A DNA stretch of 24,824 bases from a virus: positions 1 to 24,824 of the IMG/VR virus record IMGVR_UViG_3300040801_000800. One strand, given 5' to 3'. Positions 19,572 to 23,191 of the stretch are shown here, piece by piece. Below the pieces are notes generated by a model. The model was not told the DNA's origin and did no database searches. It saw nothing but the letters and a program-made list of their open reading frames with translations. Position numbers and translations under genes: made by a program. Numbering within the stretch: the stretch's first letter is position 1; every line of letters begins with the position of its first letter.

Positions 19572-19819
19572 CTTCTTCGCCTTAAGGTTAACATTCTCAA
19601 AAACATTTCAGGAATAATCCTTACAGGTATCTCTATGGCCACATACTCTTCACCAAGCTCGTAAGGCTTGTCGTATCTTTCAAAATGACAAGATGAGAAT
19701 ATCTTATTTAAGAACTCCAACTCTTCTTTATCATCATCATCTGACAATGTGTCGTAAGGTATTGGGGTGTCACGCTCCTGCCACTCTTTGTACTCTTCTT
19801 CAGTCAATAGGTATTGCAT
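19568..19819 (-). CDS. Unknown acidic small protein, last gene of the minus-strand operon
   Basis: An 83-residue protein that I do not recognise. It has an AGGAGGT site five bases before ATG 19819. The N-terminal half is acidic (LTEEEYKEWQERD, LSDDDDKEELEF) and the C-terminal half ends in basic residues (LRMLTLRRR). 'LLTEEEY' at residues 4-10 also occurs in the DUF3310 protein encoded upstream at 20246-20605. The start lies inside the end of the preceding gene (20-base overlap). The stop codon overlaps the terminase stop on the other strand, leaving no room for a terminator. Confidence 0.75.
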   Translation of the reverse strand: MQYLLTEEEYKEWQERDTPIPYDTLSDDDDKEELEFLNKIFSSCHFERYDKPYELGEEYVAIEIPVRIIPEMFLRMLTLRRRS

Positions 19820-20030
19820 CTTCTACCTCCTCATCTTTAGGGCGTACATTAACATCGCCCTTCATCTCGTCAAGTATCTCACGAATGTCAGGAGCATCTA
19901 ACCCAAGTTGTGTAGCCAACCAACCTTCAAGACCTAAGAGGACTGTGAAGACCTGTGCCGGTTCACTGACGTGTATATCAAACTCCGCAGAGCCACCTTC
20001 AAAATTTACTAATACAAAGTCTTCTGTCAT
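19800..20030 (-). CDS. Unknown small acidic protein
   Basis: A 76-residue protein from ATG 20030, chosen over an in-frame ATG 42 bases upstream because AAGGA stands eight bases before it and the longer form would run into the preceding gene. Seen: a beta-like start (DFVLVNFEGGSAEFDIHV), a helix (AQVFTVLLGLEGWLATQLG) and an acidic tail (DEEVEDAIPID). No cysteines, signal peptide or membrane segment. Not recognised; small acidic phage proteins are sometimes host-protein inhibitors, but nothing here shows that. Confidence 0.7.
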   Translation of the reverse strand: MTEDFVLVNFEGGSAEFDIHVSEPAQVFTVLLGLEGWLATQLGLDAPDIREILDEMKGDVNVRPKDEEVEDAIPID

Positions 20031-20040
20031 ACTATTATCC

Positions 20041-20256
20041 TTAATCAATTTCGTATTCAGATACAACCACAAACGCTTGGTCTGAGTCTATCTGTGTATT
20101 CAACTCATCGCGGCGAACTTCGATGGCTCTAAACAGAATCTTCTGCACGTCGGATGGAAACATGGAGGTCGATACTTGATGACCTAGCTCATGTAGTTCG
20201 TTTTCATTCATCGTAGCTATTCTATAGATTAGCTCTTTACCTTTTTCAAGACTCAC
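20041..20256 (-). CDS. Unknown small protein with GTG start
   Basis: A 71-residue protein from GTG 20256, with GGGAG seven bases upstream; the internal Met at residue 16 has no ribosome site. The start overlaps the stop of the DUF3310 gene by 11 bases, which favours coupled translation. The protein is helical and charged (KGKELIYRIATMNENELHELGHQV, FRAIEVRRDELN), ending in 'AFVVVSEYEID'. Not recognised. Confidence 0.68.
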   Translation of the reverse strand: MSLEKGKELIYRIATMNENELHELGHQVSTSMFPSDVQKILFRAIEVRRDELNTQIDSDQAFVVVSEYEID

Positions 20257-20605
20257 CCTTGAGCTCCCGTTCGTAGTCCATAGCCTTTTCTATCTCAGCC
20301 TCGGTCTTGTCTTTTTTCCCTGCACGCAAGCGGTACTTCAACATATTGCCTTTTAAATAACCACGATACTCCTCTTCTGTAAGCAGAATCTTGATGGCAT
20401 CGATAGCTTGAAAGTCTTCCCAAAGTTCATAGTGCGTGGACTTGGCGTTCTTTACTTTGTTTTGAGGCTTATTCTGAGGTACTGTACGCTGCTTTGTCAT
20501 ACCCCATGTTCCACAGTTTGGGCAACATAACCCTTCTGTGGCACTCGACTCTATACGCTCACCGCTTGTTGCTGAGTAACGACACTTATCACACTGATAG
20601 TTCAT
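20246..20605 (-). CDS. Zinc-finger plus DUF3310 protein (possible nucleotide enzyme)
   Basis: A 119-residue protein from ATG 20605 with GGAGAG five bases upstream; the longer frame back to 20623 lacks a site. The N-terminus has a zinc-ribbon pattern, C5xxC8 and C28xxC31. Residues about 58-117 fit DUF3310: 'HYELWEDFQAIDAI', then 'GNMLKYRLRAGKKDKTEAE' and 'IEKAMDYEREL'. The family occurs in T7 gp1.7 (nucleotide kinase) and many phage replication operons, and its members are often fused to other domains. A role in nucleotide metabolism is inferred from this. The start lies within the end of the small basic gene at 20589-20756. Confidence 0.75.
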   Translation of the reverse strand: MNYQCDKCRYSATSGERIESSATEGLCCPNCGTWGMTKQRTVPQNKPQNKVKNAKSTHYELWEDFQAIDAIKILLTEEEYRGYLKGNMLKYRLRAGKKDKTEAEIEKAMDYERELKGES

Positions 20606-20756
20606 TTTGTCTCTCCATATCACGTTGGTAATGTTTAGCCTGTTTCTTTTGGTCTTTTAAAAACATCGCTCGCTTTCTTTCCTTGAAGCTTTTACTAGAC
20701 TCTTGCAAGCCACCTATCTTTAGTGTTTTCTTTTTGAACTTTTCGATATCATCCAT
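20589..20756 (-). CDS. Small basic protein (55 residues), unknown
   Basis: A 55-residue ORF from ATG 20756, two bases after the stop of the RHH gene, with AAAGGA 11 bases upstream. Very lysine/arginine-rich (EKFKKKTLKIGG, SFKERKRAMFLKDQKKQAKH), fully helical in appearance, with no hydrophobic core. It overlaps the next gene by 17 bases. Such proteins often bind nucleic acid, but no family is recognised. Without this gene a 150-base hole would be left in an otherwise gapless operon, which supports it. Confidence 0.6.
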   Translation of the reverse strand: MDDIEKFKKKTLKIGGLQESSKSFKERKRAMFLKDQKKQAKHYQRDMERQNELSV

Positions 20757-20757
20757 T

Positions 20758-20892
20758 TTACTTTTTATCCTTTTTCTCTTCTTCAGTTACCATGTGGTCC
20801 AGTTGACCACGCATGCTGCGTTTGTACTTCTCAGCAAGTCGCTTGAACCGTTCATGCAACTTGTCATCAACACTGATATGTTTCTCTTTCAT
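20758..20892 (-). CDS. Ribbon-helix-helix (Arc/CopG-type) DNA-binding protein, 44 residues
   Basis: A tiny transcription-factor-like protein. It has a beta strand KHISV (4-8), helix A (about DDKLHERFKRLAEKYK, 9-24) and helix B (SMRGQLDHMVTEEEKK, 26-41), exactly the strand-helix-helix pattern and size of Arc/Mnt-type repressors. The start ATG 20892 overlaps the stop of the zinc-ribbon gene (ATGA) and has AAGGAGG at good spacing. As a dimer it could bind an operator in the phage genome or in the host. The target is unknown; no operator with paired sites is evident nearby. Confidence 0.72.
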   Translation of the reverse strand: MKEKHISVDDKLHERFKRLAEKYKRSMRGQLDHMVTEEEKKDKK

Positions 20893-20908
20893 TTGTCCTC
20901 CTTTAAAT
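20888..20908 (-). repeat. 21-bp translation-start repeat, copy 1
   Basis: The minus-strand string TTTAAAGGAGGACAAATGAA (plus one more A) contains the ribosome site and first codons (Met-Lys) of the RHH gene. An identical copy lies at 21079-21099 before the zinc-ribbon gene. Two such strong identical starts in neighbouring genes suggest duplication or gene conversion of the initiation region. Confidence 0.85.
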
Positions 20909-21083
20909 CGTCTTCGACCCTATAGCCGTTCTTTTTATAGAATTCAGCATAGCGCATTGATTTGAAAGTTTTTCTTGCAGCTATTCCATGCTCTCTTCCA
21001 CCATCTAAAGTTACAGCACCGCAGCTACCACATTTAACATAAGCATAACTTGGATTGTATTTGTAGTTATCGCAGCATTTCAT
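20889..21083 (-). CDS. Small zinc-ribbon protein (64 residues)
   Basis: Residues C3-C4 and C18xxC21 ('MKCCDN', 'VKCGSCGAVT') give a zinc-ribbon-like knuckle arrangement; the first pair is adjacent rather than CxxC, so metal binding is not certain. The 'V-C-x-x-CGA' segment followed by 'AARKTFKSMR' recalls the second half of Lar-type restriction-alleviation proteins, but the expected Trp-Asn ending is missing, so I do not assign that function. It has a strong AAAGGAGG site and a four-base ATGA overlap with the RHH gene. Confidence 0.65.
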   Translation of the reverse strand: MKCCDNYKYNPSYAYVKCGSCGAVTLDGGREHGIAARKTFKSMRYAEFYKKNGYRVEDDLKEDK

Positions 21084-21099
21084 TTGTCCTCCTTTAAAA
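21079..21099 (-). repeat. 21-bp translation-start repeat, copy 2
   Basis: Exact second copy of the ribosome-site-plus-ATG-AAA block, before the zinc-ribbon gene at 20889-21083. It also contains the stop codon (TAA) of the 35-residue membrane protein gene upstream. Confidence 0.85.
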
Positions 21100-21201
21100 T
21101 ATTAAGTCTATGAGCTTCCATACACCAAGTGGTACAAATATGACTAACCCAATTGTCATAATTTTCAATAGGGATACTAGCCCATCTCCGAAATCGTACA
21201 T
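21094..21201 (-). CDS. Tiny single-pass membrane protein (35 residues)
   Basis: Starts at ATG 21201, which shares one base with the stop of the VRR-NUC gene (TGATG), with GGAGGA six bases upstream. A short acidic start (MYDFGDG) is followed by an almost wholly hydrophobic helix (LLKIMTIGLVIFVPLGVWKLI) and ends in DLIF. It fits a membrane micropeptide. Its place in the replication operon, away from the lysis genes, suggests an early role such as superinfection exclusion or inhibition of a host membrane function; this is a guess from position. No family recognised. Confidence 0.62.
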   Translation of the reverse strand: MYDFGDGLVSLLKIMTIGLVIFVPLGVWKLIDLIF

Positions 21202-21461
21202 CAGAATTCCTCCATAACATCGTAAAGGTGGTACGCAACTATCGCCTTACCACCGCTTTGTTTAATGAGATTGAGATGCACTTTCTGCAACTCACTCACC
21301 TTACCGCCCTTCTTCTTAACCTCAACAGCACAGAACTTACCGTGCTTACAAAATAAGATATCAGGCACTCCGCTTACGTTGGCCACTACAACCTTGATGA
21401 CGTAGTAACCCTGAGCCTTGAGATAATCGATTATCTCTTTTTGTATTTGTGATTCAGTCAT
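21201..21461 (-). CDS. VRR-NUC family nuclease
   Basis: A PD-(D/E)XK nuclease of 86 residues, the usual size for the stand-alone phage form. Seen: 'ESQIQKEIIDYLKAQG' (3-18), 'NVSGVPDIL' with catalytic D34, 'FCAVEVKKKGGKVSELQ' with E47, K49 and Q59. The family includes Holliday-junction or flap-cleaving nucleases and sits in the FAN1 C-terminus. AGGAGGT-like GGAGGT precedes ATG 21461. It is encoded immediately downstream of a SNF2-like helicase, a pairing seen in many phage genomes, which suggests joint work on branched or recombining DNA. Confidence 0.88.
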   Translation of the reverse strand: MTESQIQKEIIDYLKAQGYYVIKVVVANVSGVPDILFCKHGKFCAVEVKKKGGKVSELQKVHLNLIKQSGGKAIVAYHLYDVMEEF

Positions 21462-21486: not shown

Positions 21487-22818
21487 TTACTTAAGGGCCT
21501 TTATCAATTTATCCTGTGTTGCATCCTTTTTAGCCAATGCGGTCATCAGTTTGTATTCAACTTCACCCACAGCGATGTGCATGGCTCTGACCACCTCAGT
21601 TTGACCTTGTCTATGCAGTCGGGCATTAAACTGTTGGTAAAGCTCAAGGGACCACGTGAACCCATACCATATAATGAGGCTTCCACCGTGCTGCAAGTTT
21701 AGTCCATGCCCTGCCGATGCCGGATGTGCAAGAAGGGTTTTAATTTCACCCTTGTTCCATTGTTCAACCTCGGCTCCACTTTTACTGAGAACACACGCTT
21801 CAGGGAAAGCGCGTTTAAGAGCTTCCAATTCGTGCTTATAATTGTAGGCGACCAATATATTATCGTTGGGATTTTCATCGATTACCTCCTTCAAGGTATC
21901 TATCTTCAAGTCATGTATGTGATGAACCTTTCCATCCTCATCATACATGTTACCGCTACAAAATTGAAGCAGTTTGTTTGACAGCGTAGCCGCACTCATC
22001 GCAGTAATGTTGTCCTCACCATTCAGCTTTAACACCAAATCCTTTTCAAACTTTTCGTACTGTTTTAACAGCGGACCTTCGAGCGGATTCTCAAGAACTG
22101 TTGGTACGAATTTCGGAAGTTCCAAATAATCCTCTGCTTGCATTGAAAGCACAAGGTCTTTAATGTTGTTTTGAATCTCAGTCACCGAGCCACTACGTAT
22201 CGTATAGTCAAACCCATACGGGTTCTTGTCGAAGTACCGTGTTCTAAACATAGTTATCGTACGTCCTAATCGAAGTCCCCCATCAAGCAGATACATCTGC
22301 GGCCATAGGTCCATGTACCCATTAGCAGCAGGTGTACCGGTCAATAAAACCATACGACTGATGTACGGTACGACTTTCTTCAATGCTTTGAATCGTTGTG
22401 ATGCGTGCGACTTGAACGATGACGACTCATCGATGACCACCATATCGAATGGCCACTTGGCTTTGTAGTGTTCGACTAACCACTTGACGTTTTCTCTGTT
22501 GATAACGTACACGTCAGCCGTTCGCTGCAAAGCAGTGAGACGGTCGTTAAGTTTACCCGTTATGATAGAGAACTTCAGATGTGATAAGTGCTCCCACTTG
22601 GAAGCTTCTTTGTGCCATACGGTGTTGGCCACACGTAGAGGAGCGATTACCAAGACCTTGTTTGTAACGAAGTAATCGTTCATCAACTCATCGATTGCTG
22701 TCAGCGTGGTTGTTGTTTTGCCTAGTCCCATCTCAAGGAACAGGGCTGACTTGGGTACGTCGCAGATATGCTCAACACCCTTCTTCTGATATTCATGTAA
22801 GTTGTCATAGCTCAGCAT
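21487..22818 (-). CDS. SNF2/SWI2-like DEAD-box helicase (DNA translocase)
   Basis: It has 443 residues from ATG 22818, which has AGGAG at good spacing; an in-frame ATG at 22881 lies deep in the preceding gene and lacks a site. Superfamily 2 motifs in order: LHEYQKKGV (Q-like region, 7-15), EMGLGKTTT (29-37, Walker A), VVIDESSSFKS (127-137, a DES form of DEAH), LLTGTPAANG (158-167), then 'QFCSGN' and in lobe 2 'AGHGLNL' (369-375) with QFNARLHRQGQ (396-406) as motif VI. These short phage SNF2 proteins lack accessory domains and are thought to act in recombination or fork remodelling. It overlaps the zinc-finger gene by 14 bases. Confidence 0.93.
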   Translation of the reverse strand: MLSYDNLHEYQKKGVEHICDVPKSALFLEMGLGKTTTTLTAIDELMNDYFVTNKVLVIAPLRVANTVWHKEASKWEHLSHLKFSIITGKLNDRLTALQRTADVYVINRENVKWLVEHYKAKWPFDMVVIDESSSFKSHASQRFKALKKVVPYISRMVLLTGTPAANGYMDLWPQMYLLDGGLRLGRTITMFRTRYFDKNPYGFDYTIRSGSVTEIQNNIKDLVLSMQAEDYLELPKFVPTVLENPLEGPLLKQYEKFEKDLVLKLNGEDNITAMSAATLSNKLLQFCSGNMYDEDGKVHHIHDLKIDTLKEVIDENPNDNILVAYNYKHELEALKRAFPEACVLSKSGAEVEQWNKGEIKTLLAHPASAGHGLNLQHGGSLIIWYGFTWSLELYQQFNARLHRQGQTEVVRAMHIAVGEVEYKLMTALAKKDATQDKLIKALK

Positions 22819-23191
22819 TGAACTCTCCTGTCTCGCACCATCGCTTAAAGATAGCCCGTATTTTATTTCGTCTTTTTTCACGCTTCTCTATATCGAGCTC
22901 ACCTGAGGATAACCATCTTCTATAGCGGCTTCCTTCGGCACACGCCTTACATTGAAACTGATATCCTGTGTACGATGAACAGTTCTTATAGAACATTGTC
23001 GGGTCTGTTTCACCACAAGCGCATTTAGGAACCAGTTTGCGTGGTCGTGCCTTTGCAACTTTCTTTACATAGTTCTCTTTTCTCGATATCGATGTGCACT
23101 TGTGGCACTGAGCTGAATACCACTTACGAGCCTTATAAAATAAGGTTACAGGTAAATATTCTTTACATCGACTACATCTTTTAGTCTGCAT
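22805..23191 (-). CDS. Double zinc-finger protein, unknown role
   Basis: It has 128 residues and two zinc-finger-like modules. Module 1 has C6xxC9 and C29xxC32, and module 2 has C57xC59 and C81xxC84, each with a 'FYK' between the pairs (KEYLPVTLFYK and PTMFYKNC). The repeated pattern points to an internal duplication. Similar 'CxxC...FY...CxxC' modules appear in phage endonuclease VII-like proteins, but the His/Asn catalytic residues are not visible. The C-terminal third is basic and helical (EKREKRRNKIRAIFKRW). Probably nucleic-acid binding. The start at ATG 23191 has AGGAG upstream and overlaps the polymerase stop by 11 bases. Confidence 0.72.
   Translation of the reverse strand: MQTKRCSRCKEYLPVTLFYKARKWYSAQCHKCTSISRKENYVKKVAKARPRKLVPKCACGETDPTMFYKNCSSYTGYQFQCKACAEGSRYRRWLSSGELDIEKREKRRNKIRAIFKRWCETGEFNAEL

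Follow-up and report, generated by a model that had tools for sequence, protein, structure and literature searches.

Four very small open reading frames (ORFs), of 35, 64, 44 and 55 residues, fill positions 20589-21201 of the minus strand of the window, by which we mean the whole stretch of DNA analyzed, a complete virus record of 24,824 bases. Are these ORFs genes, and what do they do for the phage that carries them? On balance, we lean toward reading the row as the accessory end of the leftward early/replication operon of a podovirus-like phage, made up of four real genes with differing histories, among which the 44-aa ribbon-helix-helix (RHH) gene, rhh44, would encode a brake on the phage's own promoters and the 64-aa zinc-ribbon-like gene, zn64, would have been captured. 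One row of tiny ORFs is thus resolved into a conserved regulator and passing cargo.

The operon and its four small genes

The rightward part of the window holds structural genes and a terminase, the top matches of which among phage records were the terminases of, e.g., Lau218 and LUZ100, at approximately 37% identity. The leftward operon comprises, in this order, a DNA polymerase, a Cys-rich endonuclease-like protein, an SNF2 helicase, a VRR-NUC nuclease, the four tiny ORFs, a DUF3310 protein and three more small genes, the names of the polymerase and of the SNF2 helicase being taken from matching phage genes; the last gene of the operon and the terminase converge end to end. No operon promoter was identified in the window; the record breaks off within the polymerase gene or immediately ahead of it. 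The VRR-NUC nuclease, located at 21201-21461 on the minus strand (Pfam VRR_NUC, 3.3e-7), was detected by tblastn in relatives and is a conserved upstream neighbor. The downstream neighbor, the DUF3310 protein (20246-20605, minus strand; Pfam DUF3310, 5.7e-14; phrog_2585, 1.7e-19), shows by eye a zinc ribbon at its N-terminus. Near the operon end, a minus-strand gene at 19800-20030 encodes a conserved 76-aa protein of unknown function that tblastn found in relatives with E down to 2e-17. Additionally, a 128-aa Cys-rich protein in the interval between the polymerase and SNF2 genes (22805-23191) matched endonuclease PHROGs at 1.3e-6 and a Lar-like PHROG at 1.1e-4.

All four ORFs start with ATG, are on the minus strand and lie exactly where the first-pass annotation had placed them: the 35-aa ORF at 21094-21201, zn64 at 20889-21083, rhh44 at 20758-20892 and bas55, a 55-aa basic orphan with a net charge of +7, at 20589-20756. 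Their junctions are as tight as had been described, with TGATG joining the VRR-NUC stop to the start of the 35-aa ORF, followed by a 10-nt spacer, an ATGA junction and a 1-nt spacer; bas55 overlaps the DUF3310 gene by 17 nt. The strong ribosome sites claimed for the whole row are present ahead of three ORFs (GGAGG at 7 nt, and AAGGAGG at 4 nt twice), whereas bas55 has a weaker AAGGA at 11 nt; an SD match of at least 4 nt is present in 21 of 136 spurious ORFs. Of 637 nt, 602 are covered by the chain of ORFs with ATG and SD. In 2000 dinucleotide shuffles, a chain of at least three ORFs never arose, and the opposite strand holds no chain of this kind. Each of the four ORFs has positive codon log-odds per codon, their scores being matched by five (35-aa ORF), two (zn64), one (rhh44) and one (bas55) of the 136 spurious ORFs, which makes the 35-aa gene the least well supported on this measure. 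Conservation of the reading frames in relatives, to which the first-pass annotation had looked as a check, was found for two of the four, the RHH and zinc genes, with more change at the third codon position (all pairs, 0.49/0.38/0.65 in the RHH set and 0.42/0.35/0.65 in the zinc set), whereas the 35-aa ORF and bas55 have no detected relatives. Taken together, the four ORFs are genes, and the kinds of product originally named for them (a membrane micropeptide, a zinc ribbon, an RHH protein and a basic protein) fit. The row is an accessory slot surrounding a single conserved regulator.

The 35-aa gene probably encodes a single-span membrane micropeptide, the hydropathy of its product being 2.23; this product would probably be located in the inner membrane. 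The basic product of bas55 may perhaps bind nucleic acid. The 35-aa ORF is supported by its context, ribosome site and hydropathy, and bas55 by its context and codon use. No relative of the 35-aa ORF was found in the relatives' loci by tblastn or in phages at E 10, and in a comparison that included the Imm superinfection immunity family (PF14373) it matched no Pfam family at all; bas55 had no relatives in the relatives' loci, phages or viral contigs. This lack of detected conservation, the codon score of the 35-aa ORF, equalled by five spurious ORFs, and the weak ribosome site of bas55 are what would be expected if both ORFs were untranslated and merely filled space. Nevertheless, both are tightly coupled to their neighbors, GGAGG precedes the 35-aa ORF, only 1 of 120 spurious ORFs equals its hydropathy and only 1 of 136 the codon score of bas55, and we consider such a filler role quite unlikely. 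By eye, a second membrane micropeptide family (LLxKxxWK...WDxxEVxxDI), unlike the 35-aa ORF, was seen in the relatives L016 (11509-11682), L013 (11848-11979) and L014 (5097-5267).

rhh44, a core gene of the lineage

Based on tblastn, eight of the 11 loci obtained with the terminase as bait contain a homologue of rhh44, L013 and L014 being near-identical among the eight. As for the three negative loci, two (L010 and L015) are truncated by the contig end before the gene could appear, and L006 is without it in the 4.3 kb after the terminase. An RHH profile searched against the 15 records behind L002-L016 matched those eight alone, a result that is partly by construction, as the profile was built from seven of the eight sequences; with leave-one-out profiles, the eight members scored 45-70 bits (E ≤1.3e-12, 4527 six-frame ORFs). 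Furthermore, all three new loci fetched via the YKWY family carry an RHH gene, at 47, 22 and 44 bits. A tblastn search with rhh44 and one RHH homologue in 50,697 phage records gave no answer.

The YKWY family precedes the RHH gene in L007, L008, L013/L014 and L016. VRR-NUC is located upstream of the RHH gene in L007, L008, L009, L011, L012 and L016, directly so in L011 and L012, and inspection by eye gave the same picture for L064, L065 and L069. The gene that follows the RHH gene varies among relatives, being DUF3310, MazG or one of several unrelated small ORFs (69, 72 and 67 aa). rhh44 belongs to the lineage core, with a fixed place after VRR-NUC and flanking genes that differ between relatives.

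Two further observations concern these loci. A conserved protein of 50-60 aa (EVTKDYFADGD..IN.ENGW) precedes the RHH gene at L008:10880-11044, L016:10798-10971, L013:10928-11080 and L007:10234-10416, and the best PHROG match of the three sequences scanned was no better than 0.078. At L069:2295-2492, a different Cys-rich protein of 65 aa, by eye unrelated to zn64, occupies the slot that separates VRR-NUC from the RHH pair.

Six residues (E3, H5, A20, R25, M27 and R28) are invariant in the eight aligned RHH sequences. The rhh44 model has a pLDDT of 89 and helices at residues 10-22 and 27-43 in the RHH arrangement; the single-chain model is without a DSSP strand, a strand being expected in the dimer only. 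RHH chains head its PDB fold matches, the nearest being CopASO, Arc, MatP and PutA (Foldseek E 0.12 or worse, none ≤0.001). rhh44 scored under every curated Pfam cut-off (ParD_like, 19.3 of 23; RHH_1, 14.3 of 20.5), and its homologues matched RHH_5 at 3.4e-4 and Arc-like repressor families at up to 3e-6. We infer the step from fold to repression, and the reading that we favor for rhh44 is an Arc-like repressor acting on promoters of the phage itself.

RHH antitoxins are common, and rhh44 matched ParD_like at 0.0011 and a FitA-like RHH family at 0.024 in Pfam, as might be expected if it were an antitoxin with the neighboring bas55 as its toxin. This pairing is very unlikely: no relative of bas55 adjoins an RHH homologue, the gene after the RHH gene differs between relatives, and a cognate toxin next door was not seen, the libraries used giving no match to a toxin family. 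We also hold it to be extremely improbable that rhh44 serves a phage-plasmid as a ParG-like partition protein; a PHROG labelled as partition is hit by two of its homologues (6.8e-4 at best) and ParG is among its fold matches, but neither ParA (PF13614) nor an integrase (PF00589) was found in seven records, some of them fragments and three of 41-45 kb, with 14 of 14 controls detected.

rhh44 as a candidate early brake

As an Arc-like repressor, rhh44 would form an Arc-type dimer, and its beta-sheet, with E3, H5 and S7 pointing outward, would bind operators at those promoters of the phage that the host polymerase serves. As the gene is located far down the operon, its product would appear after the replication genes and would damp them, acting as a delayed brake. 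No T7-type RNA polymerase was found in three relatives of 41-45 kb, the T7 control being positive, and host polymerase promoters are therefore the likely targets. The RHH gene is a concrete candidate for an early brake in a podovirus-like lineage in whose three relatives so searched a phage RNA polymerase was not found.

A search for operators was negative: the intergenic gaps of three relatives have no inverted repeat with 6-nt half sites in common, and in the operon part of the window there were no inverted repeats and no excess of promoters or terminators. Repeats and tandem arrays do occur near the early gaps of the relatives, and they are different in each genome. In relative G005, a large intergenic stretch beside candidate early promoters (L029:12934-13277) contains arrays of GTTGAGGC-like 8-nt units, which resemble spaced sites of a DNA-binding protein. 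In relative G006, a gap of 583 nt with a good promoter match close by contains two exact 21-nt tandem copies with a third partial copy (L033:14340-14415), together with a 40-nt palindrome of 90% (L033:14506-14545).

The first-pass annotation had held that small early phage proteins frequently serve host takeover or anti-defence, which for rhh44 would mean that it targets host promoters and not those of the phage. Small early phage DNA-binding proteins that shut off transcription exist, and the sequence of rhh44 gives no indication of which DNA is bound; T7 Gp5.7 is such a protein, yet it is reported to act at phage early promoters (PMC5569994). The position of rhh44 is conserved within one lineage, and the RHH profile matched neither 10 unrelated records or genomes nor two Vibrio phages with the same replication genes; this distribution pattern is that of a regulator of the phage's own circuit, and we regard host promoters as unlikely targets. 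As a lineage core gene at a fixed place, rhh44 speaks for regulation of the phage's own genes.

zn64 and a putative mobile zinc-ribbon family

Searched against Pfam, PHROGs and NCBIfam, zn64 gave nothing better than 1e-3. Neither tblastn nor a profile detected it in the relatives of the window (0 of 15 records, a weak negative without a positive control), and in a six-frame search of the 11 loci and the window, the zn64 profile matched the window alone, at 54 bits. As the only query in viral contigs, zn64 gave no answer; in the 50,697 phage records, it gave weak matches in 11, all Vibrio (E 0.006-0.04), which a better bait reached at 5e-10 to 7e-10. Besides these Vibrio records, stepwise widening gave 19 viral loci on 18 IMG/VR contigs, together with the Aliikangiella marina genome and an Aliarcobacter MAG. 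zn64 scored 53.9 bits against a profile of 10 sequences (best of 5000 shuffles, 12.1); a second profile, built without it from 17 relatives with one representative per near-identical set, gave it 59.6 bits.

The family pattern is C-x-H, C-x2-C-G, [T]D[SG], W-G-[IVL]-A, W-F, A-x-[FY]-Y and [NH]-G-R-L-P. The columns CxxCG, G-x-A, F, A-x-[FY]-Y and [NH]-G are present in zn64, which also has K-T-F-K in common with L061; it departs from the family in that the His of CxH is Asn, both Trp residues are changed and an extra Cys stands beside the first. No member scanned exceeded a Pfam cut-off (best Lar, 0.015, and CBM_10, 6.5e-4), and zn64 scored 14.2 of 25 bits against DUF7695 (PF24749), below the cut-off. 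The zn64 model, based on nine sequences, has a pLDDT of 67, and its fold search returned nothing under E 3.6; matches to BIR domains, most over approximately 22-24 columns, were rejected as a chance likeness of the zinc knuckle. The family is a small, defined and unnamed set, the function of which is testable by single-gene expression.

Members of the family have as neighbors an integrase (L061), SSB (L060 and L020), a Rad52-like protein (L020) and a DnaQ-like exonuclease (L050), and these neighborhoods fit the early replication/recombination regions of phages. zn64 is an accessory gene from a mobile family that occurs in unrelated phages and prophages, in many cases next to replication/recombination genes. 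The same neighbors, with VRR-NUC in the window, would also be expected if zn64 were a replication/recombination accessory rather than an anti-host protein, to which we give serious weight, although somewhat less than even chances. On the other side, zn64 was not found in those relatives of the window that have the same replication genes and is therefore dispensable there, and Lar-like genes lie near the family in the L051 group and in L023. These are true Lar genes (2.3e-9 and 4.7e-10); in the L051 group the Lar gene comes immediately after the family member, whereas in L023 it stands two genes downstream. As reported in PMC10286901, Lar and Ral relieve restriction by stimulating methylation. 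Since Lar-like genes occur near the family in two independent settings, anti-restriction is in play, and an anti-defence or anti-restriction role of zn64 is possible. Its product would be a small zinc protein that acts at an early stage on nucleic-acid enzymes of the host or the phage, with restriction systems as the first suspect.

The idea of a cassette of a TM gene and a zinc-ribbon gene came from Vibrio phages 1.243.O and 115E34-1, in which a TM gene stands directly before the zn64 relative. It was given up because, in the other settings with listed ORFs, the gene immediately ahead of the family member is non-hydrophobic; L026 has a hydrophobic gene two upstream of the family member, and the homology of the aligned TM proteins was not convincing. 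In Vibrio phage 115E34-1, the gene directly before the zn64 relative (L018:4659-4853) encodes a superinfection immunity protein of the Imm type (PF14373, 5.2e-9) and forms an insertion among tail genes, on the strand opposite to theirs.

A 21-nt repeat at two start sites

Two exact copies of a 21-nt repeat, TTTAAAGGAGGACAAATGAAA, lie 191 nt apart on the minus strand, one comprising the ribosome site and start of zn64 (21078-21098) and the other those of rhh44 (20887-20907). No third copy of the 19-nt core with up to 3 mismatches was found in the window, and none was expected; apart from it, the longest block that any two listed starts have in common within their 20-nt upstream regions measures 8 nt. 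A deletion between the copies would excise zn64 cleanly. The repeat, which brackets zn64, suggests RBS-linked gene capture, in which zn64 would have entered via recombination at the ribosome-site sequence.

Start-site blocks of at least 13 nt form 10 pairs in 7 of 15 stretches of the lineage, AT-richness being only partly controlled, and the proteins behind the paired blocks have no similarity. T7 and lambda have two such pairs each, so the repeat alone is no proof of insertion. With similar, shorter blocks elsewhere in the lineage, T7 and lambda, the 21-nt repeat is a hint of mechanism; the idea of start-site repeats as a general device of the lineage was dropped on account of the pairs in T7 and lambda and the partial control of AT-richness.

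A further reading, which we raise tentatively and consider rather unlikely, is that the zn64 family is an undescribed mobile phage zinc-ribbon family with a counter-restriction or nuclease-modulating function, whose genes enter early operons through recombination at repeats of the ribosome site; "undescribed" here means unrecognized in the profile libraries used. If this were true, gene gain or loop-out at these repeats would leave the neighbors undisturbed, and the repeat suggests a possible route of clean cargo exchange.

Comparison with known systems

P22 Arc and Mnt (PF03869, phrog_3180) resemble rhh44 in their length and in having a beta-strand and two helices. Four of the eight RHH homologues match PF03869 and four match phrog_3180, at up to 0.1, and Arc chains compared with the rhh44 model gave a TM of about 0.8-0.92 by query length. 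We take the register of the RS motif to be common to rhh44 and Arc/Mnt, and E3, H5 and S7 of rhh44 presumably stand in the register of Q9, N11 and R13 of Arc. Unlike Arc/Mnt, rhh44 has sub-cut-off scores and an invariant E-x-H and R-x-M-R signature, and it is located in a replication operon, in records without a detected integrase.

Lar (PF14354) is, like the members of the zn64 family, a small Cys-rich phage protein, and four of nine members match it at up to 0.5, the best at 0.015; zn64 itself scored 13.1 of 28.6 bits, below the cut-off. The family differs in having CxH where, as we assume for the Lar layout, the first CxxC is found, and in a C-terminal GIA...A-FY--NG part of its own.

T7 Gp5.7 is described as a tiny mid-operon DNA-binding protein that represses host-polymerase transcription at T7 early promoters (PMC5569994); its reported help in closing the early promoters is the analogue of the delayed brake proposed for rhh44. 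However, Gp5.7 is winged-helix-like and rhh44 is an RHH protein, and the T7 switch uses its own RNA polymerase, whereas none was found in three relatives of the window phage.

Finally, the nearest described thing to the repeat of the window is the Start Associated Sequences of cluster K mycobacteriophages, which are repeats with a ribosome site immediately before the starts of non-structural genes (PMC3203893). A genome-wide start consensus of that kind was not seen in the window, where two copies were found with up to 3 mismatches allowed. The repeat of the window differs from the Start Associated Sequences in having two copies only, in being longer (21 nt) and in extending into the coding start.
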